From NCBI RefSeq assembly GCF_026247885.1, contig NZ_CP110921.1, forward strand, positions 2,723,001 through 2,787,000: 64,000 bases of DNA, given 5' to 3'. How positions within the stretch are numbered: the stretch's first letter is position 1; the number at the start of each line of letters is the position of its first letter. Position numbers and translations under genes: made by a program. The DNA comes from Methylococcus mesophilus. GTDB lineage: Bacteria; Pseudomonadota; Gammaproteobacteria; Methylococcales; Methylococcaceae. Positions 4,784 to 46,520 of this stretch are shown in pieces. The notes under the pieces were generated by a model. That model did not search any database. It was not told where the DNA came from and saw only the letters and a list, made by a program, of their open reading frames with translations.

Positions 4784-6912
4784 GCGAAACTGAGGACCGG
4801 GTTGCCCGCATTCTGATCGTCGACGATGCGCTGGCGAACATAGATATCTTAATGAGCGCCCTGGAACCGGAGTTCGAGGTCCAGTTCGCGACGTCCGGGG
4901 CCGAGGCGTTATTTCTGCTGGAGGCGGGGGCGAAGCCCGACCTCATCCTGTTAGACGTGTTGATGCCGGGTATGGACGGCTTCGAGGTCTGCCGCCGACT
5001 CAAGGCGGAGGAGCGGACCCGCGACGTCCCGGTCATCTTCCTGACGGCCAAGGACGGCGAGCACGATGAAGCCTTCGGGCTGAGCCTGGGCGCGGTGGAT
5101 TACATCACCAAGCCCTTTCCGATGGCCATCGTCAAGGCGCGGCTGCGCAATCATATCAAGCTGGTTTTGCAGGAACGGCGTCTGCAACGGGAGATCGCCG
5201 AACACAAGGCGGCCCGGGAGCAGCTGCAGGTGGCGGGAATGGTGTTCAACGCCTCCAGCGAAGGCATGCTGCTGGTGAACGCCGCTAACCGGATCGTGGC
5301 GGTCAATCCCGCTTTCGTCGCTCTCACGGGGTACGGCCCTGAGGACGTGGTCGGCAAGGATCCGAAACTGCTGCACTCGGGCCGGCACGATGCCGCCTTT
5401 TACCGGGCCATGTGGGAGGCTCTGCATACGACGGGGACCTGGCAGGGGGAGATCTGGAACAAGCGCAAGAGCGGCGAAGAATACGCTGAGCAGTTGACGA
5501 TCAACACGATTTACGACGATTCCGGCGAAGTCTATCTGCGGGTCGCCCTGTTCGCGGACATCACCGAGAAGAAAGAATCGGAAGCCCTGATCGAGTTCCA
5601 GGCGCGCTACGACGCCTTGACTCAGCTGCCCAACCGGCAGCTGTTCGCCGAGCGACTGGCCCAGGCCGGCGAGCGGGCGCACCGCGACAACAGTCGCGTG
5701 GCGTTGCTCTACATCGATCTCGATCACTTCAAGGAGGTCAACGATACCTTGGGGCACCACCAGGGCGATGCCCTGCTGGTCCAGGTGGCGCACCGCATCC
5801 GGCGCTGTGTCAGCGAGTCGGAGACCGTGACCGTGGCCAGGCTTGGCGGCGACGAGTTCACCGTGATCGTACCGGACTTCGAGGACATGGGCGAGGTCGA
5901 GTGGCTGGCACGTGCCATCATCGACAGCCTGAGCAAGCCATACCAACTGGGGGATCATCTCGCCCATGTTTCCGCGAGCGTCGGCATCACGGTCTTTCCG
6001 GACGATGCCCCCGGCACCGACGGCCTGTTGCGGAATGCAGACCAGGCGATGTATGCGGCAAAGCGGGCGGGGCGCAACGGCTATCAGGCGTTCAATCCCG
6101 AGATGCAGCGCGCCATGTCGATGCGGGTGCGCCTGAGCCAGGCGCTGCGGGACGCGGCGCAGGCGGGCCAGTTGCGATTGCACTATCAGCCCATCGTCGA
6201 ACTGGCCTCCGGCCGGATACGCAAGGCCGAGGCCTTGCTCCGCTGGACTCATCCCGAGTTCGGAGAGGTGGACCCCGCAATTTTCATACCGATCGCCGAA
6301 GACTGTGGCAGCATACACGGGATCGGCGATTGGGTGTTCGAGCAGGCGGCGCGCCAGGCGGCACGCTGGCGCCGCAGGTTCGGGGCCGATTTCCAAGTCA
6401 GCATCAACGTCTCGCCTCTGCAGTTTCATGCCGGCGGCAGGGATTTCGGCGGATGGCTGGAGCGGCTGCGGGAACTCGGGCTGGACGGCGGCGTGCTGGC
6501 GATCGAAATTACCGAGACGCTGCTGATGGATACGGACCAGGCGATCGCCGAAAAGCTCGCTCAGTTTCGGGCCGCGGGTATCCAAATAGCGCTCGACGAC
6601 TTCGGGACGGGGTATTCTTCTCTGGCGTATCTCAAGGAGTTCAGGATCGATTACCTCAAGATCGACCGGGCATTCGTCCAGGACATGACGCCGCATTCCA
6701 AGAGCTTCCTGTTGTCGGAAGCCATCGTGACGATGGCGCACAGGCTGGGTTTGAAGGTCATCGCCGAAGGGGTGGAAACTCCGGAACAGCACAAGCTGCT
6801 CGCCCGCATCGGCTGCGACTACTTCCAGGGGTATCTGTTTTCCAAGCCGCTGCCGGAGGACGCGTTCGAGAGATTGCTCCGACCGGCCTCATGCGGGGCC
6901 GCATTTTCATGA
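4780..6912 (+). CDS. Response regulator with PAS, GGDEF and EAL domains (c-di-GMP turnover)
   Basis: A 710-residue cytoplasmic protein. Its receiver domain (1-125) has phospho-acceptor Asp59, the paired acidic residues and Lys in D-Y-I-T-K-P-F. A PAS domain follows (about 150-265), then a diguanylate cyclase domain with intact G-G-D-E-F at 356-360 and a phosphodiesterase domain with E-A-L at 484-486 and the conserved D-D-F-G-T-G-Y loop. Both output motifs look catalytically competent; I see no R-x-x-D inhibitory site before GGDEF. It overlaps the hybrid kinase by four bases and is the obvious downstream partner, which would couple the kinase signal to cyclic di-GMP. Net activity cannot be read from sequence. 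Confidence 0.93.
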   Translation: MSETEDRVARILIVDDALANIDILMSALEPEFEVQFATSGAEALFLLEAGAKPDLILLDVLMPGMDGFEVCRRLKAEERTRDVPVIFLTAKDGEHDEAFGLSLGAVDYITKPFPMAIVKARLRNHIKLVLQERRLQREIAEHKAAREQLQVAGMVFNASSEGMLLVNAANRIVAVNPAFVALTGYGPEDVVGKDPKLLHSGRHDAAFYRAMWEALHTTGTWQGEIWNKRKSGEEYAEQLTINTIYDDSGEVYLRVALFADITEKKESEALIEFQARYDALTQLPNRQLFAERLAQAGERAHRDNSRVALLYIDLDHFKEVNDTLGHHQGDALLVQVAHRIRRCVSESETVTVARLGGDEFTVIVPDFEDMGEVEWLARAIIDSLSKPYQLGDHLAHVSASVGITVFPDDAPGTDGLLRNADQAMYAAKRAGRNGYQAFNPEMQRAMSMRVRLSQALRDAAQAGQLRLHYQPIVELASGRIRKAEALLRWTHPEFGEVDPAIFIPIAEDCGSIHGIGDWVFEQAARQAARWRRRFGADFQVSINVSPLQFHAGGRDFGGWLERLRELGLDGGVLAIEITETLLMDTDQAIAEKLAQFRAAGIQIALDDFGTGYSSLAYLKEFRIDYLKIDRAFVQDMTPHSKSFLLSEAIVTMAHRLGLKVIAEGVETPEQHKLLARIGCDYFQGYLFSKPLPEDAFERLLRPASCGAAFS

Positions 6913-34113: not shown

Positions 34114-34341
34114 TCTAGCCTCCCGTGCTTTTCAATTATACGCGAGATCGTCTCTCGAACATTGGCCGGGGGCCTGTGATGGTACTGCGTCCAAGAAAGG
34201 GCATTGGTGTGAAGACGGTTCGGAGCTTGAGCGAAAACCGGCTCCTCGGCAGCTTCTGTGAAAGCCGCCGAGGTGTCGGAAAACCTGCCAAGCGAGCCGA
34301 GGGGAGCGGCCCAAAAGGAATCCGCTCGCTCCGGGCCCCGG

Positions 34342-34875
34342 TTATTCCAGGTTAGCGTGCCGAGTTCTCATTTCTTCTTCGGGGATGCCTTTCTCATGGA
34401 TGATGTGAGAGATGGTGGCCTCGAGGAAGAGGAGGGTAGAGAGCTCGAAGACGGTGCCCATGGGCATGCCGACGACTTTTCCGAAGAGCTCGGGAGAGCC
34501 GATGCGGAAGAGGTTGTCGGCGAGGTCGCCGAGGGAGGAGCTGTCGCGGGTGGAGACGAGGGCGATGGATGCGCCCTGCTCCTTGGCTTTCTTGGTGAAG
34601 GCGAGCATGGTTTCGGTTTCACCGGAGCCGGAGATCACGATCAGCAAGTCGCCCTTGCGGATGCTGGGGGTGACGATTTCGCCGACGACGAAGACCTCAT
34701 AGCCGCCGTGCATGAGGCGCATGGCGAAGAACCTGGCGACCAGTCCCGACCGGCCGGCCCCCGCGACGAAGACGCGGGAGGCCTGGTCGAGCATGGCGGT
34801 CAGTTTTGCATCATAGCCGGCATCGGTGGCAGCGAGGATGCCGGAGATTTTGTCTATGATCAGTTTCTGATGCAT
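34342..34875 (-). CDS. hxlB: 6-phospho-3-hexuloisomerase, copy 1
   Basis: A 177-residue SIS-domain isomerase that converts D-arabino-3-hexulose 6-phosphate to fructose 6-phosphate, the second RuMP step. It shows V-F-V-A-G-A-G-R-S-G near residues 34-43, R-L-M-H-G-G-Y-E-V, I-S-G-S-G-E-T-E-T (sugar-phosphate Ser cluster) near 80-88 and a catalytic His region near the C-terminus. It follows hps by eleven bases. The protein is identical to copy 2. Also named phi, hpi or rmpB. Confidence 0.95.
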   Translation of the reverse strand: MHQKLIIDKISGILAATDAGYDAKLTAMLDQASRVFVAGAGRSGLVARFFAMRLMHGGYEVFVVGEIVTPSIRKGDLLIVISGSGETETMLAFTKKAKEQGASIALVSTRDSSSLGDLADNLFRIGSPELFGKVVGMPMGTVFELSTLLFLEATISHIIHEKGIPEEEMRTRHANLE

Positions 34876-34886
34876 GCAAATTCCCG

Positions 34887-35534
34887 TCAGGCGGAAGCGG
34901 CGACGACCTGTTCGTAGATTTCGCGCGCGGCATCGGCGGGGGAAGCGGCGCCGTAGATGGCGGCGCCGACGACGATGATGTTGGCGCCGGTCTTGACGAC
35001 CTGCTGGGCGGTGGAGGCCTTGATGCCGCCGGCGACGGAGATGCGCACGGGCAGGCCCAGCTTGGCGATGGCCTGGAGGTCGGCGAAGGGGGTCTGGCCG
35101 GCGGCCTGGGCGTCGAGGCCGGTGTGGATGCCGACGATCTGGGCGCCGGCCTTGGCGGACTCACGGGCGCAGGTGGCCTTGTCGGGGACGTTGATCAGGT
35201 CGACCTGGACTTCGGCGTTGTGCTTGTTGGCGGCATTGATGACGCCCTTGATGGTGGCCAGTCCGGCGACGCCGAGGACGGTGGTGATGTCGGCGCCGGC
35301 GGCGAAGAACGGCGCGGCTTCGTATTCACCGGCGTCCATGGTTTTGAGGTCGACCAGGAGCAGCTTGTTGGGGAAGCGCTTCTTGAACTCCTTCACCAGG
35401 GCGACGCCGTTGTGCTTGATGCTCGGCGTGCCGATCTCGAAGATGTCGACATAAGGCGCGGCGAGGCTTGCGAGCTTCAGGGTCTGCGGGATGTCCAGCG
35501 TGTCCAGTGCGAGCTGAATCAATGGTCTTGCCAT
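34887..35534 (-). CDS. hxlA: 3-hexulose-6-phosphate synthase, copy 1 (intact)
   Basis: A 215-residue aldolase that joins formaldehyde to ribulose 5-phosphate, the entry step of the RuMP cycle. The start at 35534 follows a strong G-G-A-G-G-A-G ribosome site. Motifs are Q-L-A-L-D near residue 5, L-V-D-L-K-T-M-D near 53-60 (catalytic Asp and Lys), and the phosphate-binding V-A-G-G-I-K and I-I-V-V-G-A-A-I-Y-G of the OMPDC superfamily. Unlike copy 2, the G5 run at 34938-34942 keeps the frame to the normal C-terminus. Also named hps or rmpA. Confidence 0.96.
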   Translation of the reverse strand: MARPLIQLALDTLDIPQTLKLASLAAPYVDIFEIGTPSIKHNGVALVKEFKKRFPNKLLLVDLKTMDAGEYEAAPFFAAGADITTVLGVAGLATIKGVINAANKHNAEVQVDLINVPDKATCARESAKAGAQIVGIHTGLDAQAAGQTPFADLQAIAKLGLPVRISVAGGIKASTAQQVVKTGANIIVVGAAIYGAASPADAAREIYEQVVAASA

Positions 35535-35634
35535 GAGATCTCCTCCGATCAAAAAAGTAGAGAAAAAAGTCGAGTGAAGCCTTAAGTTTTATGAGGTATT
35601 GCTAAACGCACAATTTCCCAACTGTAAAGAGTGA

Positions 35635-35661
35635 GGGGCCGCTGTCAATGCGACCGGCCCC
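35635..35661 (-). terminator. Intercistronic hairpin upstream of hps, copy 1
   Basis: Seven-base perfect arms (35635-35641 and 35655-35661, G-G-G-G-C-C-G with its complement) lie ten bases beyond the repeat-protein stop, in its direction of transcription. It may terminate part of the transcripts or protect the downstream hps-phi message. In copy 2 both arms are one base longer, so pairing is kept. Confidence 0.45.
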
Positions 35662-35670
35662 TTCGCTGGG

Positions 35671-36380
35671 TCAGCCGTTGAGGCTTTTCAGGTACTTGGT
35701 GACGCCAGTTTCGCCCGTTGCCACGATGGCGGGTTTGGGCAGGTTCTTGATGTACTTGGCGACACCGGTTTCGACCGCGGCGGCCACTTCGGGCAGCGGC
35801 AGGCTCTTGAGGTACTTGGCCACACCGGTTTCAGGCCCCGGACGGGCTCCGGCAGTGCCTTGAGGTATTTGGCGACACCGGTTTCGGCGCCCGCGTCCCC
35901 GGCCGAGAGGCCCTGGGCCTGCAGGTACTTGGCGACGCCGGTGGCGCCGGTGGCAGCCGGTGCCGGAGCGGCGGCCGGCGCTGCAGCCGCGGCCGGGCGG
36001 GCAGCCGCCGGCCGGCGGCTGCTCCAGACCACGAAGCCGATCAGGGCCACGACCACGCCGCCGAACAGGTAATAATCCGAGCCGGCATCCTGGGCGGCGG
36101 GTTTCGCGGTGCTGGGGGCGGTTTCGGCGGGGGCCGTCACGGCGGGCTGGGCGGCCGGCGCCTTGCTGGCAGGGGCGGCCGGTGCCGCCTGGGGCTTGGC
36201 CGCCGGCGCGGCGGCGGCGGGAGCCGCGCCGGCTTTGCCGACCAGGCTGGGATCCTGATAGATCACCGACGGCTCGAAGTCGGGCGGATATTCAGCGGCG
36301 CCCGCGAGCGGGGCGGCCAGCAGCAGGGCTGCGAACACGGTGTAGGTCGAGAACGTTTTCTTCACGTGGTTGTCCCCCAT
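35671..36380 (-). pseudogene. Membrane-anchored GVAKYLK-repeat protein, copy 1 (frameshifted)
   Basis: Same gene as 42352-43062, but the C run at 35836-35839 has four bases where copy 2 has five. Translation therefore leaves the normal frame after the second repeat and reads a Pro/Ser-rich tail of about 50 residues that passes the normal stop region. The signal sequence, Ala/Pro linkers and membrane helix are unaffected; the last three repeats are lost. Because every length difference between the two blocks is a 4/5 G/C run, a base-calling error is as likely as a real mutation. Confidence 0.75.
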
Positions 36381-36511
36381 AAGTCTTGTCAGTGGGTATA
36401 AAAGCTCGGCCGGGCTGGTTTCAAGTTCAGCCCTGTTTCAAATTGCATCGCTCGCGTTCCGTTGCCTGCGCTTTCGCGCCCGCATTCCCAGCGCCCGTTC
36501 GGCCCGCCGCG

Positions 36512-37575
36512 CTAGCGGACGATCGGATCGAGCTCGCCCTGGGCATAACGCCGGCTCATCTCCTCCAGGCGCAGGGGCTTGAGCTTGGCGGCCTGGCCGG
36601 CGGCGCCGAAGGCTTCGTAGCGGGCCCGGCAGATCGCGGTCATGGCGGTTTGCGCGGCCTTGTAGAGCTTGCGCGGGTCGAAGTTCTTCCTGTCTTCGGC
36701 CATGAACTTGCGCATGGCGCCATAGGAGGCGATGCGCAGATCGGTATCGATGTTGACCTTGCGGACGCCATGGCGGATGCCCTCGGCGATCTCCTCGACC
36801 GGCACGCCGTAGGTCTGGCCGATGTCGCCGCCGTAGTCGTTGATCATCTGCGCCCAGTCCTCGGGGACCGAGGACGAGCCGTGCATCACCAGATGGATAT
36901 TGGGAATCCGCTGGTGGATGTCCTTGACCCGATCGATCCGCAGCACCTGCCCGGTGGGTTTCCGGGTGAACTTGTAGGCGCCGTGGCTGGTGCCGATGGC
37001 GATCGCCAGGGCATCGACCTGGGTCTGGCGGACGAAATCCGCCGCCTCGTCCGGATCGGTCAGCAGCATCGAGTGGTCCAACTCGCCTTCCGCGCCGTGG
37101 CCGTCCTCCTCCCCGCCCGGCCGGTCTCGAGCGACCCCAGGCAGCCGAGTTCGCCTTCCACCGAGACGCCGCAGGCATGCGCCATGTCGACCACTTTGCG
37201 GGTAGTCTCGACATTGTACGCATAGCTGGCCGGCGTTTTCATGTCCTCCTCGAGCGATCCGTCCATCATCACCGAGCTGAAGCCGGACTGGATGGCACGG
37301 ACGCAGACCGCCGGGGAGGCGCCGTGATCCTGGTGCATGCACACCGGGATGTGCGGATACATGTCGATGGCGGCCAGCACCAGGTGGCGCAGGAACGGCT
37401 CGCCGGCATACGTCCTCGCGCCGGCCGAGCCCTGCAGGATCACCGGGGCGTCCACGGCCGAGGCCGCCTCCATGATGGCCTTGATCTGCTCCATGTTGTT
37501 GACGTTGAACGCCGGCAGGCCGTAGCCGTGCTCGGCGGCGTGGTCCAACAACTGGCGCAGGCTGATCAATGCCAT
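36512..37575 (-). pseudogene. fba: Fructose-bisphosphate aldolase class II, copy 1 (frameshifted)
   Basis: Matches the intact copy at 43194-44258 except that the C run at 37111-37114 has four bases instead of five. This breaks the frame about residue 155, inside the [10 protein letters not shown] region, and separates the N-terminal third from the rest. If real, only the other copy makes aldolase; the start at 37575 and the stop at 36512 are otherwise unchanged. Probably either a sequencing error in a homopolymer or a recent lesion tolerated because of the duplicate. Confidence 0.75.
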
Positions 37576-37598
37576 GGGATGCCCTCTCGAGATGGCGT

Positions 37599-39611
37599 TT
37601 AGAACAAGGCCTCGACCTGACCGACCACGTTGTCGACGGTGAAGCCGAACAGCTTGAACAGCTGGCCGGCCGGCGCGGATTCGCCGAAGCGGTCCAGGCC
37701 GATAACTTTGCCATGGCTGCCGACGTATTTCCACCAGCCGTCGCTGACACCGGCCTCGATGGCGATGCGGCGGGTCACGGCGGGCGGCAGCACGCTGTCG
37801 CGGTAGGCCTGATCCTGGGCGTCGAACACATTGGTGGAGGCCATGGACACCACGCGGACCTGCTTGCCCTTGGCGGCCAGGGCTTCGGCCGCCTTCACCG
37901 CCAGCTCGACTTCCGAGCCGGTGGCCAGGAGGATGGCGTCGGGCGTACCGGCGCAGTCGACCAGGACGTAGCCGCCTTGCATGATGGCGGCGATCTGTTC
38001 CGGCGTCCGGGGCATGTGCGGCAGGTTCTGGCGCGAGAAGATCAGGGTGGACGGGCCGTCCTGGCGCTCGATGGCGCACTTCCAGGCCACCGCCGACTCC
38101 ACTGCGTCGCACGGGCGCCAGACCTGCATGTTGGGAATCAGGCGCAGGGTCGCGGTCTGCTCGACCGGCTGGTGGGTGGGGCCGTCCTCGCCCAGGCCGA
38201 TGGAGTCGTGGGTGTAGACATAGATCACCGGGATCTTCATCAGGGCCGACATGCGCAGCGCATTGCGAGCATATTCGGAGAACATCAGGAAGGTGGCGCC
38301 GTAGGGCTTGAAGCCGCCGTGCAGGGCCAGGCCGTTCATGATGGCGGACATGCCGAACTCGCGCACGCCGTAGTTGATGTAGTTGCCGTCGTGGCCGGGG
38401 GCGTTGACGTTCTTGCAGCCGGCCCACAGGGTCAGGTTGGAGCCGGCGAGGTCCGCCGAGCCGCCCAAGAGTTCCGGCAGCAGCGGACCGAAGCCGTTGA
38501 GCGCGTTCTGGGAGGCCTTGCGGCTGGCGATGGTCTCGGCCTTGGCGTTCACCTTGGCCACGAAGGCGGCGGATTGCTCCGCCCAGTCCTTGGGCAGTTC
38601 GCCCGCCATGCGGCGTTCGAACTCGGCGGCCAGCTCGGGGAATGCGCGGCGGTAGTGCTCGAAGCGGTCGTTCCACTCGCTTTCGGCCTTGGCGCCGGTC
38701 TCGCGCGCGCTCCAGGCCTCGTAGATGTCGGCCGGGACTTCGAAGGCCGGGTGCGACCAGCCGAGGTTCTCGCGGGTGAGGGCGACTTCGTCGGTGCCGA
38801 GGGCGGCGCCGTGACAGTCTTCCTTGCCCTGCTTGTTGGGCGAGCCCCAGCCGATGATGGTCTGGCAGCAGATCAAAGACGGCTTGTCGGTGACCGCGCG
38901 GGCGGCCTCGATGGCGGCCTTCACGGCGTCCGGATCGTGGCCGTCGACGACCGGGATCACATGCCAGCCGTAGGCCTCGAAGCGCTTCGGGGTATCGTCC
39001 AGGAACCAGCCCGGCGTGTCGCCGTGACCGCGGACTTCGCCGTCGATGGAAATGTTGTTGTCGTCGTAAAAGGCGATCAGCTTGCCCAGCTTGAAGGAGC
39101 CGGCCAGCGAGCAGGCCTCGTGAGAGATACCTTCCATCAGGCAGCCGTCACCCAGGAAGGTATAGGTGTAATGGTCGACGACATTGTGGCCGGGGCGGTT
39201 GAACTGCGCCGCCAGGGTGCGTTCGGCCAGGGCCAGGCCCACGGCGTTGGTGATGCCCTGTCCGAGGGGGCCGGTGGTGGTCTCGACACCGGGGGTGTAG
39301 CCGTACTCGGGATGGCCGGGGGTCTTGGAGTGGAGCTGGCGGAAGTTCTGCAGTTCCTCGATGGGCAGCGCGTAGCCGGTCAGGTGCAGCAGGGAATAGA
39401 TCAGCATCGAGCCATGGCCGTTGGACAGCACGAAGCGGTCGCGGTTGGGCCACTGCGGATTGGCCGGGTTGTGGCACAGGTAATCGTTCCACACCACCTC
39501 GGCAATGTCCGCCATCCCCATCGGCGCGCCCGGATGGCCCGAGTTCGCCTTCTGCACGGCATCCATGCTCAAGGCTCGTATGGCGTTGGCTAGTTCTCGA
39601 CGCGAAGGCAT
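37599..39611 (-). CDS. tkt: Transketolase, copy 1
   Basis: A 670-residue thiamine-diphosphate enzyme that moves two-carbon units between sugar phosphates. It serves both the RuMP rearrangement phase and the Calvin cycle. Motifs are [11 protein letters not shown] near residue 20-30, the ThDP-binding G-D-G-C-L-M-E-G near 155 with the Asn further on, and the transketolase signature around [11 protein letters not shown] near 460. It starts M-P-S-R-R-E-L-A-N, differing from copy 2 only in the first few residues. Its own ribosome site (A-A-A-A-A-G-G-A-G-A-T) precedes it. Confidence 0.96.
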
Positions 39612-39762: not shown

Positions 39763-40752
39763 TTATGCCGCTTCGAGATGGACCAAGCGATCGGCCAGCA
39801 ATTTTTCCAACTGCTCGAGTGCCTTGGTGAAGCCTTGGATGCCTTCTTCGAGCTTTTCGTTGGCCATGCGGTTTTCCGCATGCATCTTGTCGAAGGTGTA
39901 TTTGTTTACGTGTATTTTCTCGATCGGGTAGTCCTTCGCCGCGGAGGGATCCAGCTTGCGCGGTAGTTCGCCTTCCGTAGCCTGCAGTTCGGCCAACAGC
40001 GTAGGCGCGATGGTCAGCAGGTCGCTTCCGGCTAGTTCGGTGATTTCGCCGATGTTGCGGAAGCTGGCGCCCATGACTTCAGTCTTGTAACCGAACTTCT
40101 TATAGTAGTTATAGATCTGGGTCACGGACAGGACACCCGGATCTTCATGCGGGGCGTAGGATTCCCGACCGGTGTCCTTCTTATACCAGTCGAGAATACG
40201 GCCGACGAAGGGGGAGATCAGGGTGATGCCGTTTTCGGCGCAGGCGATGGCCTGGTGCAGGCCGAACAACAGAGTCAGGTTGCAATGGATGCCTTCCTTT
40301 TCCAGCACGGCGGCGGCCTCGATACCTTCCCAGGTCGCGGCGATCTTGATCAAAACGCGTTCTTTGGAAACGCCGGCTGCTTCGTATTGCTTGATGACTT
40401 CGCGGGCCTTCTCGATGGTGCTCTCGGTGTCGTAGGAGAGACGGGCGTCCACTTCGGTGGACACGCGGCCCTCGATGATCTGCAGGATCTTCAACCCGAA
40501 AGAGACGGCCAGACGGTCGAAAGCGAGGTTCGCCACTTGGGCGGCGGAAGCGCCGGCGCCCAGGGTTTGCCGTGCGCCCTTCAGGGTGTCATCGACGATA
40601 CCTTGGTATTGTGGCATCTGGGCGGCAGCGGTAATAAGCGAAGGATTGGTGGTCGCGTCACGTGGCTTGAATTTCTCGATCGCTTCGATGTCTCCCGTGT
40701 CCGCCACGACGACGGTGACTTCGCGGAGTTGGTCAAGCAGGTTTTTCGACAT
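39763..40752 (-). CDS. tal: Transaldolase (TalB type)
   Basis: A 329-residue enzyme that transfers dihydroxyacetone units between sugar phosphates, used to regenerate ribulose 5-phosphate in the RuMP cycle. It has D-A-T-T-N-P-S-L-I near residues 33-41 and the Schiff-base Lys in [11 protein letters not shown] near 132. [10 protein letters not shown] and [10 protein letters not shown] match the long TalB form. It is the only single-copy gene of the cluster, lying between the two repeated blocks. Its ribosome site is G-G-A-G just before 40752. Confidence 0.96.
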
Positions 40753-41012: not shown

Positions 41013-41021
41013 TTGCCTCGG

Positions 41022-41555
41022 TTATTCCAGGTTAGCGTGTCGAGTTCTCATTTCTTCTTCGGGGATGCCTTTCTCATGGATGATGTGAGAGATGGTGGCC
41101 TCGAGGAAGAGGAGGGTAGAGAGCTCGAAGACGGTGCCCATGGGCATGCCGACGACTTTTCCGAAGAGCTCGGGAGAGCCGATGCGGAAGAGGTTGTCGG
41201 CGAGGTCGCCGAGGGAGGAGCTGTCGCGGGTGGAGACGAGGGCGATGGATGCGCCCTGCTCCTTGGCTTTCTTGGTGAAGGCGAGCATGGTTTCGGTTTC
41301 ACCGGAGCCGGAGATCACGATCAGCAAGTCGCCCTTGCGGATGCTGGGGGTGACGATTTCGCCGACGACGAAGACCTCATAGCCGCCGTGCATGAGGCGC
41401 ATGGCGAAGAACCTGGCGACCAGTCCCGACCGGCCGGCCCCCGCGACGAAGACGCGGGAGGCCTGGTCGAGCATGGCGGTCAGTTTTGCATCATAGCCGG
41501 CATCGGTGGCAGCGAGGATGCCGGAGATTTTGTCTATGATCAGTTTCTGATGCAT
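41022..41555 (-). CDS. hxlB: 6-phospho-3-hexuloisomerase, copy 2
   Basis: Encodes the same 177-residue SIS-domain isomerase as 34342-34875; the single base difference at 41040 is a silent Arg codon change near the C-terminus. It isomerises 3-hexulose 6-phosphate to fructose 6-phosphate. Because the preceding hps frame is shifted, ribosomes translating hps would run past its normal stop and end at 41491, inside this gene, which could affect coupled initiation of phi. Confidence 0.93.
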   Translation of the reverse strand: MHQKLIIDKISGILAATDAGYDAKLTAMLDQASRVFVAGAGRSGLVARFFAMRLMHGGYEVFVVGEIVTPSIRKGDLLIVISGSGETETMLAFTKKAKEQGASIALVSTRDSSSLGDLADNLFRIGSPELFGKVVGMPMGTVFELSTLLFLEATISHIIHEKGIPEEEMRTRHANLE

Positions 41556-41566
41556 GCAAATTCCCG

Positions 41567-42213
41567 TCAGGCGGAAGCGGCGACGACCTGTTCGTAGATT
41601 TCGCGCGCGGCATCGGCGGGGAAGCGGCGCCGTAGATGGCGGCGCCGACGACGATGATGTTGGCGCCGGTCTTGACGACCTGCTGGGCGGTGGAGGCCTT
41701 GATGCCGCCGGCGACGGAGATGCGCACGGGCAGGCCCAGCTTGGCGATGGCCTGGAGGTCGGCGAAGGGGGTCTGGCCGGCGGCCTGGGCGTCGAGGCCG
41801 GTGTGGATGCCGACGATCTGGGCGCCGGCCTTGGCGGACTCACGGGCGCAGGTGGCCTTGTCGGGGACGTTGATCAGGTCGACCTGGACTTCGGCGTTGT
41901 GCTTGTTGGCGGCATTGATGACGCCCTTGATGGTGGCCAGTCCGGCGACGCCGAGGACGGTGGTGATGTCGGCGCCGGCGGCGAAGAACGGCGCGGCTTC
42001 GTATTCACCGGCGTCCATGGTTTTGAGGTCGACCAGGAGCAGCTTGTTGGGGAAGCGCTTCTTGAACTCCTTCACCAGGGCGACGCCGTTGTGCTTGATG
42101 CTCGGCGTGCCGATCTCGAAGATGTCGACATAAGGCGCGGCGAGGCTTGCGAGCTTCAGGGTCTGCGGGATGTCCAGCGTGTCCAGTGCGAGCTGAATCA
42201 ATGGTCTTGCCAT
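41567..42213 (-). pseudogene. hxlA: 3-hexulose-6-phosphate synthase, copy 2 (frameshifted near C-terminus)
   Basis: Identical to the intact hps at 34887-35534 until the G run at 41618-41621, which has four bases instead of five. Residues 1-197 are normal and include all active-site motifs. The last 18 residues are replaced by a 49-residue foreign tail that ends at 41491, overlapping phi. The product would lack the final helix, so activity is doubtful. The change may be a sequencing error, as argued for the other homopolymer differences. Confidence 0.8.
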
Positions 42214-42313
42214 GAGATCTCCTCCGATCAAAAAAGTAGAGAAAAAAGTCGAGTGAAGCCTTAAGTTTTATGAGGTATTGCTAAACGCACAATTTCCCAA
42301 CTGTAAAGAGTGA
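42214..42313 (-). promoter_or_regulatory. hps leader with T-rich tract and strong ribosome site
   Basis: The 100 bases before hps (same in copy 1, 35535-35634) are AT-rich compared with the surroundings. On the minus strand they contain two runs of six T shortly before a near-perfect ribosome site G-G-A-G-G-A-G seven bases from the ATG. A T-T-T-A-C-A element lies about 100 bases upstream of the start, but no clear -10 follows. The layout suggests high expression of hps-phi, possibly from an internal promoter. Confidence 0.45.
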
Positions 42314-42342
42314 GGGGGCCGCTGTCAATGCGACCGGCCCCC
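42314..42342 (-). terminator. Intercistronic hairpin upstream of hps, copy 2
   Basis: The perfect eight-base arms 42314-42321 and 42335-42342 lie nine bases after the repeat-protein stop. On the minus strand they are followed by T-C-A-C-T-C-T-T-T. It could be a partial terminator or a stability element that sets the ratio of tkt-fba messages to hps-phi messages. Copy 1 has both arms shortened by one base. Confidence 0.45.
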
Positions 42343-42351
42343 TTCGCTGGG

Positions 42352-43062
42352 TCAGCCGTTGAGGCTTTTCAGGTACTTGGTGACGCCAGTTTCGCCCGTT
42401 GCCACGATGGCGGGTTTGGGCAGGTTCTTGATGTACTTGGCGACACCGGTTTCGACCGCGGCGGCCACTTCGGGCAGCGGCAGGCTCTTGAGGTACTTGG
42501 CCACACCGGTTTCAGGCCCCCGGACGGGCTCCGGCAGTGCCTTGAGGTATTTGGCGACACCGGTTTCGGCGCCCGCGTCCCCGGCCGAGAGGCCCTGGGC
42601 CTGCAGGTACTTGGCGACGCCGGTGGCGCCGGTGGCAGCCGGTGCCGGAGCGGCGGCCGGCGCTGCAGCCGCGGCCGGGCGGGCAGCCGCCGGCCGGCGG
42701 CTGCTCCAGACCACGAAGCCGATCAGGGCCACGACCACGCCGCCGAACAGGTAATAATCCGAGCCGGCATCCTGGGCGGCGGGTTTCGCGGTGCTGGGGG
42801 CGGTTTCGGCGGGGGCCGTCACGGCGGGCTGGGCGGCCGGCGCCTTGCTGGCAGGGGCGGCCGGTGCCGCCTGGGGCTTGGCCGCCGGCGCGGCGGCGGC
42901 GGGAGCCGCGCCGGCTTTGCCGACCAGGCTGGGATCCTGATAGATCACCGACGGCTCGAAGTCGGGCGGATATTCAGCGGCGCCCGCGAGCGGGGCGGCC
43001 AGCAGCAGGGCTGCGAACACGGTGTAGGTCGAGAACGTTTTCTTCACGTGGTTGTCCCCCAT
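42352..43062 (-). CDS. Membrane-anchored protein with five GVAKYLK repeats, copy 2 (intact)
   Basis: A 236-residue protein from the ATG at 43062; a GTG at 43047, eight bases after G-G-G-G-G-A, would give a more typical signal start (V-K-K-T-F). It has a signal-like segment (6-28), an Ala/Pro-rich linker (50-98) and one membrane helix (102-119) followed by S-S-R-R. The positive-inside rule places the rest in the cytoplasm. After a second Ala/Pro linker come five copies of E-T-G-V-A-K-Y-L-K-x-L, with the Thr at 147, 167, 185, 205 and 225 (spacing 18-20), joined by short Pro-containing spacers. I do not recognise the family. Its fixed place between fba and hps suggests a role tied to these enzymes, perhaps anchoring them. 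That is inference. Confidence 0.8.
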   Translation of the reverse strand: MGDNHVKKTFSTYTVFAALLLAAPLAGAAEYPPDFEPSVIYQDPSLVGKAGAAPAAAAPAAKPQAAPAAPASKAPAAQPAVTAPAETAPSTAKPAAQDAGSDYYLFGGVVVALIGFVVWSSRRPAAARPAAAAAPAAAPAPAATGATGVAKYLQAQGLSAGDAGAETGVAKYLKALPEPVRGPETGVAKYLKSLPLPEVAAAVETGVAKYIKNLPKPAIVATGETGVTKYLKSLNG

Positions 43063-43193
43063 AAGTCTTGTCAGTGGGTATAAAAGCTCGGCCGGGCTGG
43101 TTTCAAGTTCAGCCCTGTTTCAAATTGCATCGCTCGCGTTCCGTTGCCTGCGCTTTCGCGCCCGCATTCCCAGCGCCCGTTCGGCCCGCCGCG

Positions 43194-44258
43194 CTAGCGG
43201 ACGATCGGATCGAGCTCGCCCTGGGCATAACGCCGGCTCATCTCCTCCAGGCGCAGGGGCTTGAGCTTGGCGGCCTGGCCGGCGGCGCCGAAGGCTTCGT
43301 AGCGGGCCCGGCAGATCGCGGTCATGGCGGTTTGCGCGGCCTTGTAGAGCTTGCGCGGGTCGAAGTTCTTCCTGTCTTCGGCCATGAACTTGCGCATGGC
43401 GCCATAGGAGGCGATGCGCAGATCGGTATCGATGTTGACCTTGCGGACGCCATGGCGGATGCCCTCGGCGATCTCCTCGACCGGCACGCCGTAGGTCTGG
43501 CCGATGTCGCCGCCGTAGTCGTTGATCATCTGCGCCCAGTCCTCGGGGACCGAGGACGAGCCGTGCATCACCAGATGGATATTGGGAATCCGCTGGTGGA
43601 TGTCCTTGACCCGATCGATCCGCAGCACCTGCCCGGTGGGTTTCCGGGTGAACTTGTAGGCGCCGTGGCTGGTGCCGATGGCGATCGCCAGGGCATCGAC
43701 CTGGGTCTGGCGGACGAAATCCGCCGCCTCGTCCGGATCGGTCAGCAGCATCGAGTGGTCCAACTCGCCTTCCGCGCCGTGGCCGTCCTCCTCCCCCGCC
43801 CGGCCGGTCTCGAGCGACCCCAGGCAGCCGAGTTCGCCTTCCACCGAGACGCCGCAGGCATGCGCCATGTCGACCACTTTGCGGGTAGTCTCGACATTGT
43901 ACGCATAGCTGGCCGGCGTTTTCATGTCCTCCTCGAGCGATCCGTCCATCATCACCGAGCTGAAGCCGGACTGGATGGCACGGACGCAGACCGCCGGGGA
44001 GGCGCCGTGATCCTGGTGCATGCACACCGGGATGTGCGGATACATGTCGATGGCGGCCAGCACCAGGTGGCGCAGGAACGGCTCGCCGGCATACGTCCTC
44101 GCGCCGGCCGAGCCCTGCAGGATCACCGGGGCGTCCACGGCCGAGGCCGCCTCCATGATGGCCTTGATCTGCTCCATGTTGTTGACGTTGAACGCCGGCA
44201 GGCCGTAGCCGTGCTCGGCGGCGTGGTCCAACAACTGGCGCAGGCTGATCAATGCCAT
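43194..44258 (-). CDS. fba: Fructose-bisphosphate aldolase class II, Calvin-cycle type, copy 2 (intact)
   Basis: A 354-residue zinc aldolase that splits fructose 1,6-bisphosphate and can also make sedoheptulose bisphosphate. Motifs are [10 protein letters not shown] near residue 22, H-Q-D-H-G near 82-86 (catalytic Asp, zinc His), S-V-M-M-D-G-S, V-E-G-E-L-G near 140, a second zinc His in S-H-G-A-Y-K-F and the third in V-M-H-G-S-S-S. N-I-D-T-D-L-R is near the C-terminal phosphate site. It follows tkt by 23 bases. Confidence 0.96.
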
Positions 44259-44281
44259 GGGATGCCCTCTCGAGATGGCGT

Positions 44282-46294
44282 TTAGAACAAGGCCTCGACC
44301 TGACCGACCACGTTGTCGACGGTGAAGCCGAACAGCTTGAACAGCTGGCCGGCCGGCGCGGATTCGCCGAAGCGGTCCAGGCCGATAACTTTGCCATGGC
44401 TGCCGACGTATTTCCACCAGCCGTCGCTGACACCGGCCTCGATGGCGATGCGGCGGGTCACGGCGGGCGGCAGCACGCTGTCGCGGTAGGCCTGATCCTG
44501 GGCGTCGAACACATTGGTGGAGGCCATGGACACCACGCGGACCTGCTTGCCCTTGGCGGCCAGGGCTTCGGCCGCCTTCACCGCCAGCTCGACTTCCGAG
44601 CCGGTGGCCAGGAGGATGGCGTCGGGCGTACCGGCGCAGTCGACCAGGACGTAGCCGCCTTGCATGATGGCGGCGATCTGTTCCGGCGTCCGGGGCATGT
44701 GCGGCAGGTTCTGGCGCGAGAAGATCAGGGTGGACGGGCCGTCCTGGCGCTCGATGGCGCACTTCCAGGCCACCGCCGACTCCACTGCGTCGCACGGGCG
44801 CCAGACCTGCATGTTGGGAATCAGGCGCAGGGTCGCGGTCTGCTCGACCGGCTGGTGGGTGGGGCCGTCCTCGCCCAGGCCGATGGAGTCGTGGGTGTAG
44901 ACATAGATCACCGGGATCTTCATCAGGGCCGACATGCGCAGCGCATTGCGAGCATATTCGGAGAACATCAGGAAGGTGGCGCCGTAGGGCTTGAAGCCGC
45001 CGTGCAGGGCCAGGCCGTTCATGATGGCGGACATGCCGAACTCGCGCACGCCGTAGTTGATGTAGTTGCCGTCGTGGCCGGGGGCGTTGACGTTCTTGCA
45101 GCCGGCCCACAGGGTCAGGTTGGAGCCGGCGAGGTCCGCCGAGCCGCCCAAGAGTTCCGGCAGCAGCGGACCGAAGCCGTTGAGCGCGTTCTGGGAGGCC
45201 TTGCGGCTGGCGATGGTCTCGGCCTTGGCGTTCACCTTGGCCACGAAGGCGGCGGATTGCTCCGCCCAGTCCTTGGGCAGTTCGCCCGCCATGCGGCGTT
45301 CGAACTCGGCGGCCAGCTCGGGGAATGCGCGGCGGTAGTGCTCGAAGCGGTCGTTCCACTCGCTTTCGGCCTTGGCGCCGGTCTCGCGCGCGCTCCAGGC
45401 CTCGTAGATGTCGGCCGGGACTTCGAAGGCCGGGTGCGACCAGCCGAGGTTCTCGCGGGTGAGGGCGACTTCGTCGGTGCCGAGGGCGGCGCCGTGACAG
45501 TCTTCCTTGCCCTGCTTGTTGGGCGAGCCCCAGCCGATGATGGTCTGGCAGCAGATCAAAGACGGCTTGTCGGTGACCGCGCGGGCGGCCTCGATGGCGG
45601 CCTTCACGGCGTCCGGATCGTGGCCGTCGACGACCGGGATCACATGCCAGCCGTAGGCCTCGAAGCGCTTCGGGGTATCGTCCAGGAACCAGCCCGGCGT
45701 GTCGCCGTGACCGCGGACTTCGCCGTCGATGGAAATGTTGTTGTCGTCGTAAAAGGCGATCAGCTTGCCCAGCTTGAAGGAGCCGGCCAGCGAGCAGGCC
45801 TCGTGAGAGATACCTTCCATCAGGCAGCCGTCACCCAGGAAGGTATAGGTGTAATGGTCGACGACATTGTGGCCGGGGCGGTTGAACTGCGCCGCCAGGG
45901 TGCGTTCGGCCAGGGCCAGGCCCACGGCGTTGGTGATGCCCTGTCCGAGGGGGCCGGTGGTGGTCTCGACACCGGGGGTGTAGCCGTACTCGGGATGGCC
46001 GGGGGTCTTGGAGTGGAGCTGGCGGAAGTTCTGCAGTTCCTCGATGGGCAGCGCGTAGCCGGTCAGGTGCAGCAGGGAATAGATCAGCATCGAGCCATGG
46101 CCGTTGGACAGCACGAAGCGGTCGCGGTTGGGCCACTGCGGATTGGCCGGGTTGTGGCACAGGTAATCGTTCCACACCACCTCGGCAATGTCCGCCATCC
46201 CCATCGGCGCGCCCGGATGGCCCGAGTTCGCCTTCTGCACGGCATCCATGCTCAAGGCTCGTATGGCGTTGGCTAACTCTCGTCGCGTCCTCAT
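44282..46294 (-). CDS. tkt: Transketolase, copy 2
   Basis: Encodes the same 670-residue enzyme as 37599-39611 apart from the N-terminus, here M-R-T-R-R-E-L-A-N. The chosen start at 46294 lies seven bases after G-G-A-G-A; an ATG at 46309 in frame lacks a ribosome site. It is the first gene of the upstream block and is divergent from cbbR. The differing first codons lie outside the repeat; two of them (Glu, Leu) are synonymous changes. Confidence 0.96.
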
Positions 46295-46520
46295 ATCGGT
46301 CTCCTTCAATGTTGTCTGCTCGCTGGGATGCGTAGAAAATTCTGAAACAATGTATTATCCCTCAGTAAATTCCATCTTGTCACGCATTGGGAACCGGCGC
46401 AGCCTCCAATTGCGTACCAGGATGAAACGACCGATGCTGTGCGGGGTCGCCTAATTTATTGGCAATCTACGATAAGGGAAAATCAGTCTATTTTAGTAAG
46501 ATAATAAATAAAAATTATTC
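46295..46520. promoter_or_regulatory. Divergent tkt/cbbR promoter region with AT-rich palindromes
   Basis: The 226 bases between tkt copy 2 and cbbR become very AT-rich towards cbbR. Two inverted repeats are visible: T-T-A-T N12 A-T-A-A at 46456-46475, of the size expected for a LysR-type operator, and A-T-A-A-T N8 A-T-T-A-T at 46501-46518, immediately before the cbbR start. CbbR proteins normally bind such a divergent region and control both their own gene and the operon. No protein-coding gene is apparent. Confidence 0.6.

Follow-up and report, generated by a model that had tools for sequence, protein, structure and literature searches.

The window, a stretch of 64,000 nucleotides of the Methylococcus mesophilus genome, carries on its minus strand a gene for a predicted membrane protein of 231 residues whose C-terminal part holds five copies of a short motif. 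The open reading frame that the earlier note had drawn at 42352-43062 does exist on this strand, and its start has been moved to the GTG at 43047, which, given the GGGGGA ribosome-binding site just upstream, is very probably the true start rather than the ATG at 43062. AGGGGAA-like sites also lie upstream of the matching starts of most homologues (starts picked by eye). The features of this copy of the gene (copy A) are as follows.

42352..43047, minus strand: TGV-repeat membrane protein, copy A, 231 aa, probable GTG start
42367..42390, minus strand: repeat 5, TGVTKYLK, residues 220-227
42427..42450, minus strand: repeat 4, TGVAKYIK, residues 200-207
42487..42510, minus strand: repeat 3, TGVAKYLK, residues 180-187
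42541..42564, minus strand: repeat 2, TGVAKYLK, residues 162-169
42601..42624, minus strand: repeat 1, TGVAKYLQ, residues 142-149
42697..42759, minus strand: predicted transmembrane helix, residues 97-117, then Arg-Arg (model and charge pattern)
42910..42975, minus strand: conserved periplasmic motif YPPDFEPSVIYQD, residues 25-46 (alignment of 24 members)
42976..43047, minus strand: signal-like hydrophobic segment, residues 1-24 (sequence; model helix 6-24)
43055..43060, minus strand: ribosome-binding site GGGGGA ahead of the GTG start (read from sequence)

Read from the N-terminus, the parts are the signal segment, the periplasmic motif, an Ala/Pro linker, the transmembrane helix followed by Arg-Arg, a second linker and then five TGV(A/T)KY(L/I) motifs, which begin at residues 142, 162, 180, 200 and 220 (spacings of 20, 18, 20 and 20). 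The architecture originally described, five such repeats at a spacing of 18-20 residues together with a signal segment, linkers and a transmembrane helix, is present in full. A chance origin of the repeats was rejected: when the protein was shuffled 100,000 times, TGVxKYx arose once in 22 of the shuffled sequences and twice in none.

The gene lies in the second of two RuMP blocks, at window positions 34335-39604 (block B) and 41015-46287 (block A), with the following neighbours.

34887..35552, minus strand: hps copy B
35671..36365, minus strand: copy B of the repeat gene, frameshifted after repeat 2 in this assembly
39763..40752, minus strand: tal, between the two blocks
41022..41555, minus strand: phi copy A (homology to phi-like segments of relatives)
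41491..42231, minus strand: hps copy A open frame, C-terminus frameshifted in this assembly
43194..44258, minus strand: fba copy A
44282..46309, minus strand: tkt copy A open frame

The blocks are identical at 5264 of 5274 positions and differ by five mismatches and five one-base gaps, every gap falling in a G/C run. Two of the gaps fall between genes, a third disrupts hps in block A, and the remaining two disrupt fba and the repeat gene in block B; as all are single-base and sit in G/C homopolymers, the gene breaks likely reflect assembly error. The repeat gene had been placed between fba and hps in both blocks, and that position is correct, with the proviso that copy B is frameshifted after its second repeat. 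Duplication of the RuMP block has been reported for Methylococcus, and the repeat gene is absent from the excerpted passages of those reports (PMC517821, PMC8527097). A third hps of this genome lies outside the window (G000:C1:3091219-3091830), within an open frame of 421 residues, which fits the HPS-PHI fusion that an excerpt of PMC8527097 describes in Methylococcus.

Scanning the organism's own DNA for GVxxY[LIF] returned 38 places, against 19 for the reversed control pattern, and 10 of the 38 lie in the two gene copies. A spread of the motif across the other proteins of the genome was rejected: the remaining 28 places are single look-alikes (e.g. ITGVSRYL and LSGVIRYL), some in frames that by eye are those of peroxiredoxin and cysteine synthase, and no second repeat array was found among them.

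Across four sequences of the window's genus, the motif cores are under the strongest constraint (pN/pS 0.11), compared with 0.21 for the transmembrane helix, 0.30 for the spacers between motifs, 0.50 and 0.31 for the two linkers and 0.48 for the signal segment; the periplasmic motif stands at 0.69 in these sequences, with synonymous change low there too. An AlphaFold2 model of the window protein, built from 24 sequences and of low confidence (mean pLDDT 60.6), places helices at residues 6-24, at 97-117 and at all five motifs, leaving the long linkers unstructured. By charge balance (a positive-inside prediction), 24 of 24 membrane forms would have cytoplasmic repeats, and soluble paralogues lack both signal segment and transmembrane helix, so that the predicted topology agrees with the earlier claim that the repeats face the cytoplasm. 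By this prediction alone, the repeats and their presumed client enzymes would share one compartment. The modelled picture, a constrained short helix in several copies within variable linkers, is one that multivalent disordered scaffolds have.

No Pfam or NCBIfam family matched the window protein at 0.001, just two chance-like matches appeared in Pfam with E values up to 10, and the PDB yielded no relatives (best E 0.058 and 0.56 for our profiles A1 and A2). Given the lack of a Pfam or NCBIfam match, annotation pipelines probably call the protein hypothetical. The Pfam family U1snRNP70_N was judged to be a local likeness of the short motif and was rejected; relative to its cut-off of 23 bits, the soluble homologues L102 (27.0) and L158 (24.8) scored above and L096 (22.2) just under. 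We found no description of the protein, the motif or a RuMP scaffold among the papers listed by searches of the open-licence literature, where the excerpt of one paper (PMC6548844) refers its hypothetical proteins to supplements.

A search with the single sequence matched 37 of 61 genomes of the window's kin, and profile A1, built from 24 aligned members, matched 218 of 251 genomes of the order Methylococcales. Six matches of the weakest type that were checked (G008, G040, G044, G054, G057 and G206) hold the N-terminal part without the repeats, and further weak A1 matches may likewise be N-terminal only; in G008, the gene ends right after the transmembrane helix. In a sample of the class, 6 of 369 genomes matched, three of the order and three of one other family, that of Methylophaga, and the sole match among 398 genomes of a phylum sample is the window's own. 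A contig scan with these outside members returned 37 loci, part of them assigned to Methylophaga, Methylophagaceae or Piscirickettsiaceae and the others belonging to gammaproteobacterial or pseudomonadotal MAGs.

The family occurs in two forms. The membrane form, to which the window protein belongs, carries 3-5 motifs in 24 aligned members. In the soluble form, which has neither signal segment nor transmembrane helix, a loose count over 12 aligned members gives 3-18 motifs (2 in the Methylophaga-type locus L208); many soluble forms start with a short hydrophobic segment. The soluble form is found beside the membrane form, in a second hps-tkt block in G115, and alone in the Methylophaga-type loci, where it was the only form seen. 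In the AlphaFold2 model of the longest soluble protein (mean pLDDT 65.7), a helix stands at 17 of 18 motifs, along with one long helix. Motif spacing ranges from 14 to more than 80 residues, where wide gaps may hide worn repeats, a range more in keeping with flexible linkers than with a rigid solenoid.

Modules of the protein also turn up elsewhere. Eight repeat genes have no RuMP gene in the stretch examined (one of them at a contig end), including those of L069, L074, L077, L083, L087, L240 and L241. Three of these (L069:9483-10016, L083:9578-10111 and L087:1109-1525) encode proteins with a transmembrane helix, four to seven motifs and no clear signal segment, with a collagen-repeat protein and a sulfatase among the neighbours in L069, and L241:8481-9374 (G043) encodes a soluble protein that has three to four motifs and whose C-terminal end contains Cys and His. 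In one Methylophaga-type genome, a 2049-residue ChpA/PilL-like chemotaxis kinase (L144:5748-11894) bears about five TGV-type motifs in a linker. YPAANFEPxVIYQD-type motifs, in contrast, occur without TGV repeats in L162, L164, L165, L166 and L167, where a signal segment is followed by one to three copies, and in a mini-protein of 94 residues encoded within a RuMP block (L239:8306-8587); from these sequences, the periplasmic-motif module appears separable from the repeats. The membrane paralogue of L240 (9267-9836, in G115) has three repeats; 1.1 kb away, beyond a LuxR-type regulator, stand mxaF, mxaJ and mxaG. Its place there is suggestive with regard to the earlier proposal of a link to the site of methanol dehydrogenase, which gains this one paralogue beside mxaF and is held back by 80 other genomes of the family to which G115 belongs, where no comparable match was found, just weak ones.

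By TIGR03128, hps scores over the cut-off in 48 of the 61 relatives, among them all 37 with a single-sequence match, and none of the 13 relatives without hps has such a match (the profile gives G044 a weak, N-terminal-only one). Six genomes of the class sample have hps over the cut-off, exactly the six with the protein, a co-occurrence that represents two lineages and not six independent cases. The repeat gene lies at most 1 kb from hps, phi, tkt, tal or fba in 42 of 43 inspected genomes, the exception being G026, a 72%-complete assembly. These 43 are a subset of the A1-matching genomes (218 in the order and three outside it) that have a repeat gene; G008, whose repeats are missing, and G017, with a stop in the match beside hps, fall outside them, and the stretches examined exclude those of G028 and G036, which have hps and lack the protein, and of G021, which has the protein. 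Two loci, L027 and L028, encode identical repeat proteins in genomes of two families (G051 and G038), and contig C1 of G051 repeats contig C285 of G038 in the stretch seen; the locus of G031 is on a 4.8-kb contig. A contaminant contig is suggested by the letter-for-letter identity of the L027 and L028 proteins across families, and the G051 and G031 loci may be binning contamination, so that up to two of the 43 genomes may be false.

Gene order around the repeat gene varies. It is tkt-fba-gene-hps-phi-tal in the window's genus, hps-phi-tkt-gene-tal in G024, hps-phi-tkt-gene-soluble gene-tal in several genomes of family f8, and gene-hps-phi alone within about 8 kb either side in G007. The Methylophaga-type layout is hps-soluble gene-tal-hps-phi; among the enzymes searched, hps is next upstream and tal next downstream at 36 of 37 such loci, and the remaining one is truncated where its contig stops. 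A copy of hps is present in every operon layout seen whole. The linkage to hps/phi-type genes that the earlier note had asked about is borne out, as homologues lie close to RuMP genes in 42 of 43 genomes and at 36 of 37 Methylophaga-type loci; the opposite pattern, homologues lying consistently away from C1 genes, was not found.

The converse does not hold throughout. RuMP-type genomes without the repeats include, within the order, an f5 genus, G010, G015, G018 and G023 and, outside it, G956 (tal-hps-phi) and G764 and G966 (both phi-hps), the last three taken to be members of the phylum sample. No motif gene was found in 3-20 kb around hps in these genomes, and the protein is thus not needed for RuMP as such. 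In a tree of HPS (52 rows with the protein against 12 without it plus one fusion), three label changes suffice, compared with a mean of 11.9 when labels are shuffled (0 of 500 shuffles as low as observed). The PHI tree needs five changes against a shuffled mean of 6.7 (10 of 500 as low) and the Tal tree four against 3.9, both trees being low in power as just six and four of their rows, respectively, are without the protein. Rows with an internal stop or under 93% of the set minimum length were dropped from the trees, and G017 was scored as protein-bearing in them and omitted from the column count given below. Methylophaga HPS groups with the HPS of protein-bearing methanotrophs (support 90/98, not starred), in a group that also holds G023, which is without the protein.

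HPS is 66-76% identical to that of the window in five repeat-less family members and 77-85% in eleven listed repeat-bearing family members outside the genus, while PHI (81-85%, 2 genomes), Tal (84-88%, 3 genomes) and Tkt (82-86%, 2 genomes) of the repeat-less members are ordinary. At HPS columns fixed among protein-bearing methanotrophs, G010 and G015 have 16-20 changes, G023 has 7, G018 has 6 and G008 has 3-4, compared with at most 5 in a leave-one-out control of 36 entries, in which one genome appears twice and close relatives kept in the reference lower the counts. The excess is clear only in G010 and G015, G018 and G023 being just above the control and G008 within it; PHI and Tal of the same repeat-less genomes show 0-2 changes at such columns. 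HPS distance alone proves nothing, since Methylophaga HPS has also diverged with the protein present (4-9 changes at the same columns in the four rows listed; 66-67% identity to the window's HPS in G409). The most consistently changed column, the E of DAGE, belongs to what we take to be the active-site region. The HPS of M. capsulatus was, according to an old report, reportedly particulate. HPS follows whether a genome has the protein more closely than Tal or PHI do, with the clear excess of HPS change coming from two genomes, and its change would fit a docked enzyme freed from constraint; it may also reflect replacement or changed use of HPS.

We propose that the window protein belongs to a family of multivalent docking proteins that serve RuMP enzymes, above all HPS, and that it represents the membrane-anchored one of the two forms of this family; to this reading, in which binding is inferred, we give about an even chance. 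The signal segment and the single transmembrane helix would hold the protein in the inner membrane with its N-terminal part outside, and a disordered cytoplasmic tail would bear three to five short helices of the form [TS]-[GS]-V-x-[KR]-Y-[LIVM], each a putative docking site, most likely for HPS. By offering several weak sites along a single flexible chain, the tail would raise the concentration of HPS, and perhaps that of PHI, Tal and Tkt, near the membrane, through which formaldehyde produced in the periplasm would enter, and so might favour its channelling; the soluble protein, with a few to 18 repeats in many species, would cross-link the enzyme further. The tethering scaffold suggested in the earlier note is partly supported by the family, the linkage, the charge pattern and the number of repeats; it needs widening to take in the soluble poly-repeat form and narrowing to HPS as the most consistent partner. 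What weakens the docking reading are the repeat-less RuMP genomes, the motif in the chemotaxis kinase and the unlinked paralogues.

The last two observations would fit repeats that self-associate or bind some other factor, building a condensate or scaffold through which the RuMP enzymes are recruited only indirectly, or which organises internal membranes. Short helices on disordered linkers can bundle, as encapsulation peptides do in the excerpted account of PMC12339742, and the many soluble forms that begin with a hydrophobic segment may touch the membrane; self-association alone, however, leaves the strict hps linkage and the pattern of the HPS tree unexplained, and we consider it rather unlikely. 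A signal segment, a transmembrane helix and a cytoplasmic tail are also what a membrane sensor or regulator would have, its periplasmic motif (YPAADFxPxVIYQD, conserved and also found without repeats) sensing a signal and its cytoplasmic repeats acting on enzyme activity or gene control. Yet Pfam and NCBIfam reveal no recognisable sensor or output domain, and the Methylophaga-type operon has a soluble form without the periplasmic part, which makes such a role improbable. That the gene is simply a conserved neighbour of unrelated function, carried along in the operon, would suit the unlinked paralogues, one of them by mxaF-mxaJ-mxaG in a single genome, but seems very improbable when the linkage survives many operon rearrangements and recurs in a second order, and when protein and hps co-occur in 6 of 6 cases in the class sample.

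As a docking protein for RuMP enzymes, the window protein would have counterparts in carbon fixation. CsoS2 of alpha-carboxysomes bears repeated short motifs on a disordered chain and is encoded beside the enzyme it serves, and EPYC1 of the algal pyrenoid is a flexible chain of evenly spaced helices that make multiple weak contacts with an enzyme. The window protein, too, has short motif repeats encoded beside its presumed clients, and its evenly spaced predicted helices on a flexible chain recall EPYC1, with binding drawn by analogy. Unlike CsoS2, it has no CsoS2 domain match in Pfam, its neighbours are tkt, fba, hps, phi and tal and not Rubisco and shell genes, and it combines a membrane anchor with a formaldehyde pathway; from EPYC1 it differs in having no sequence match in the libraries searched, in being bacterial, in its membrane-anchored form and in its different enzyme. 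By analogy, it may work like CsoS2 or EPYC1 while being a member of neither family. The encapsulation peptides of bacterial microcompartments are, in the excerpt of PMC12339742, short helices joined by disordered linkers and able to gather cargo; they are fused to core enzymes, whereas the window motif occurs in many copies on a separate protein. Synthetic Mdh-Hps-Phi fusions have been reported as helpful in synthetic methylotrophy in the excerpted part of PMC8879981. Those fusions, as described there, are man-made with the same aim of bringing the formaldehyde source and HPS together; the window protein is natural and separate, with a putative function.

In its widest form, which we advance tentatively and with more doubt than trust, the proposal is that gammaproteobacterial methanotrophs and Methylophaga possess a dedicated formaldehyde-fixation metabolon, a multivalent assembly of HPS and its partners on an inner-membrane anchor bearing three to five helices, to which many species would add a soluble cross-linker with up to 18. 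Such an assembly would be the RuMP counterpart of the Rubisco scaffolds and would be shared, along with its HPS, by two orders. The use of methane and methanol branches at formaldehyde, a toxic compound, and a conserved scaffold next to the formaldehyde-fixing enzyme would go some way towards explaining how a high formaldehyde flux is carried safely. If this is true, the gene would serve as a genetic marker of how the RuMP pathway is organised in many gammaproteobacterial methanotrophs and as a handle on it, and synthetic methylotrophy would gain a natural part that is ready for use.
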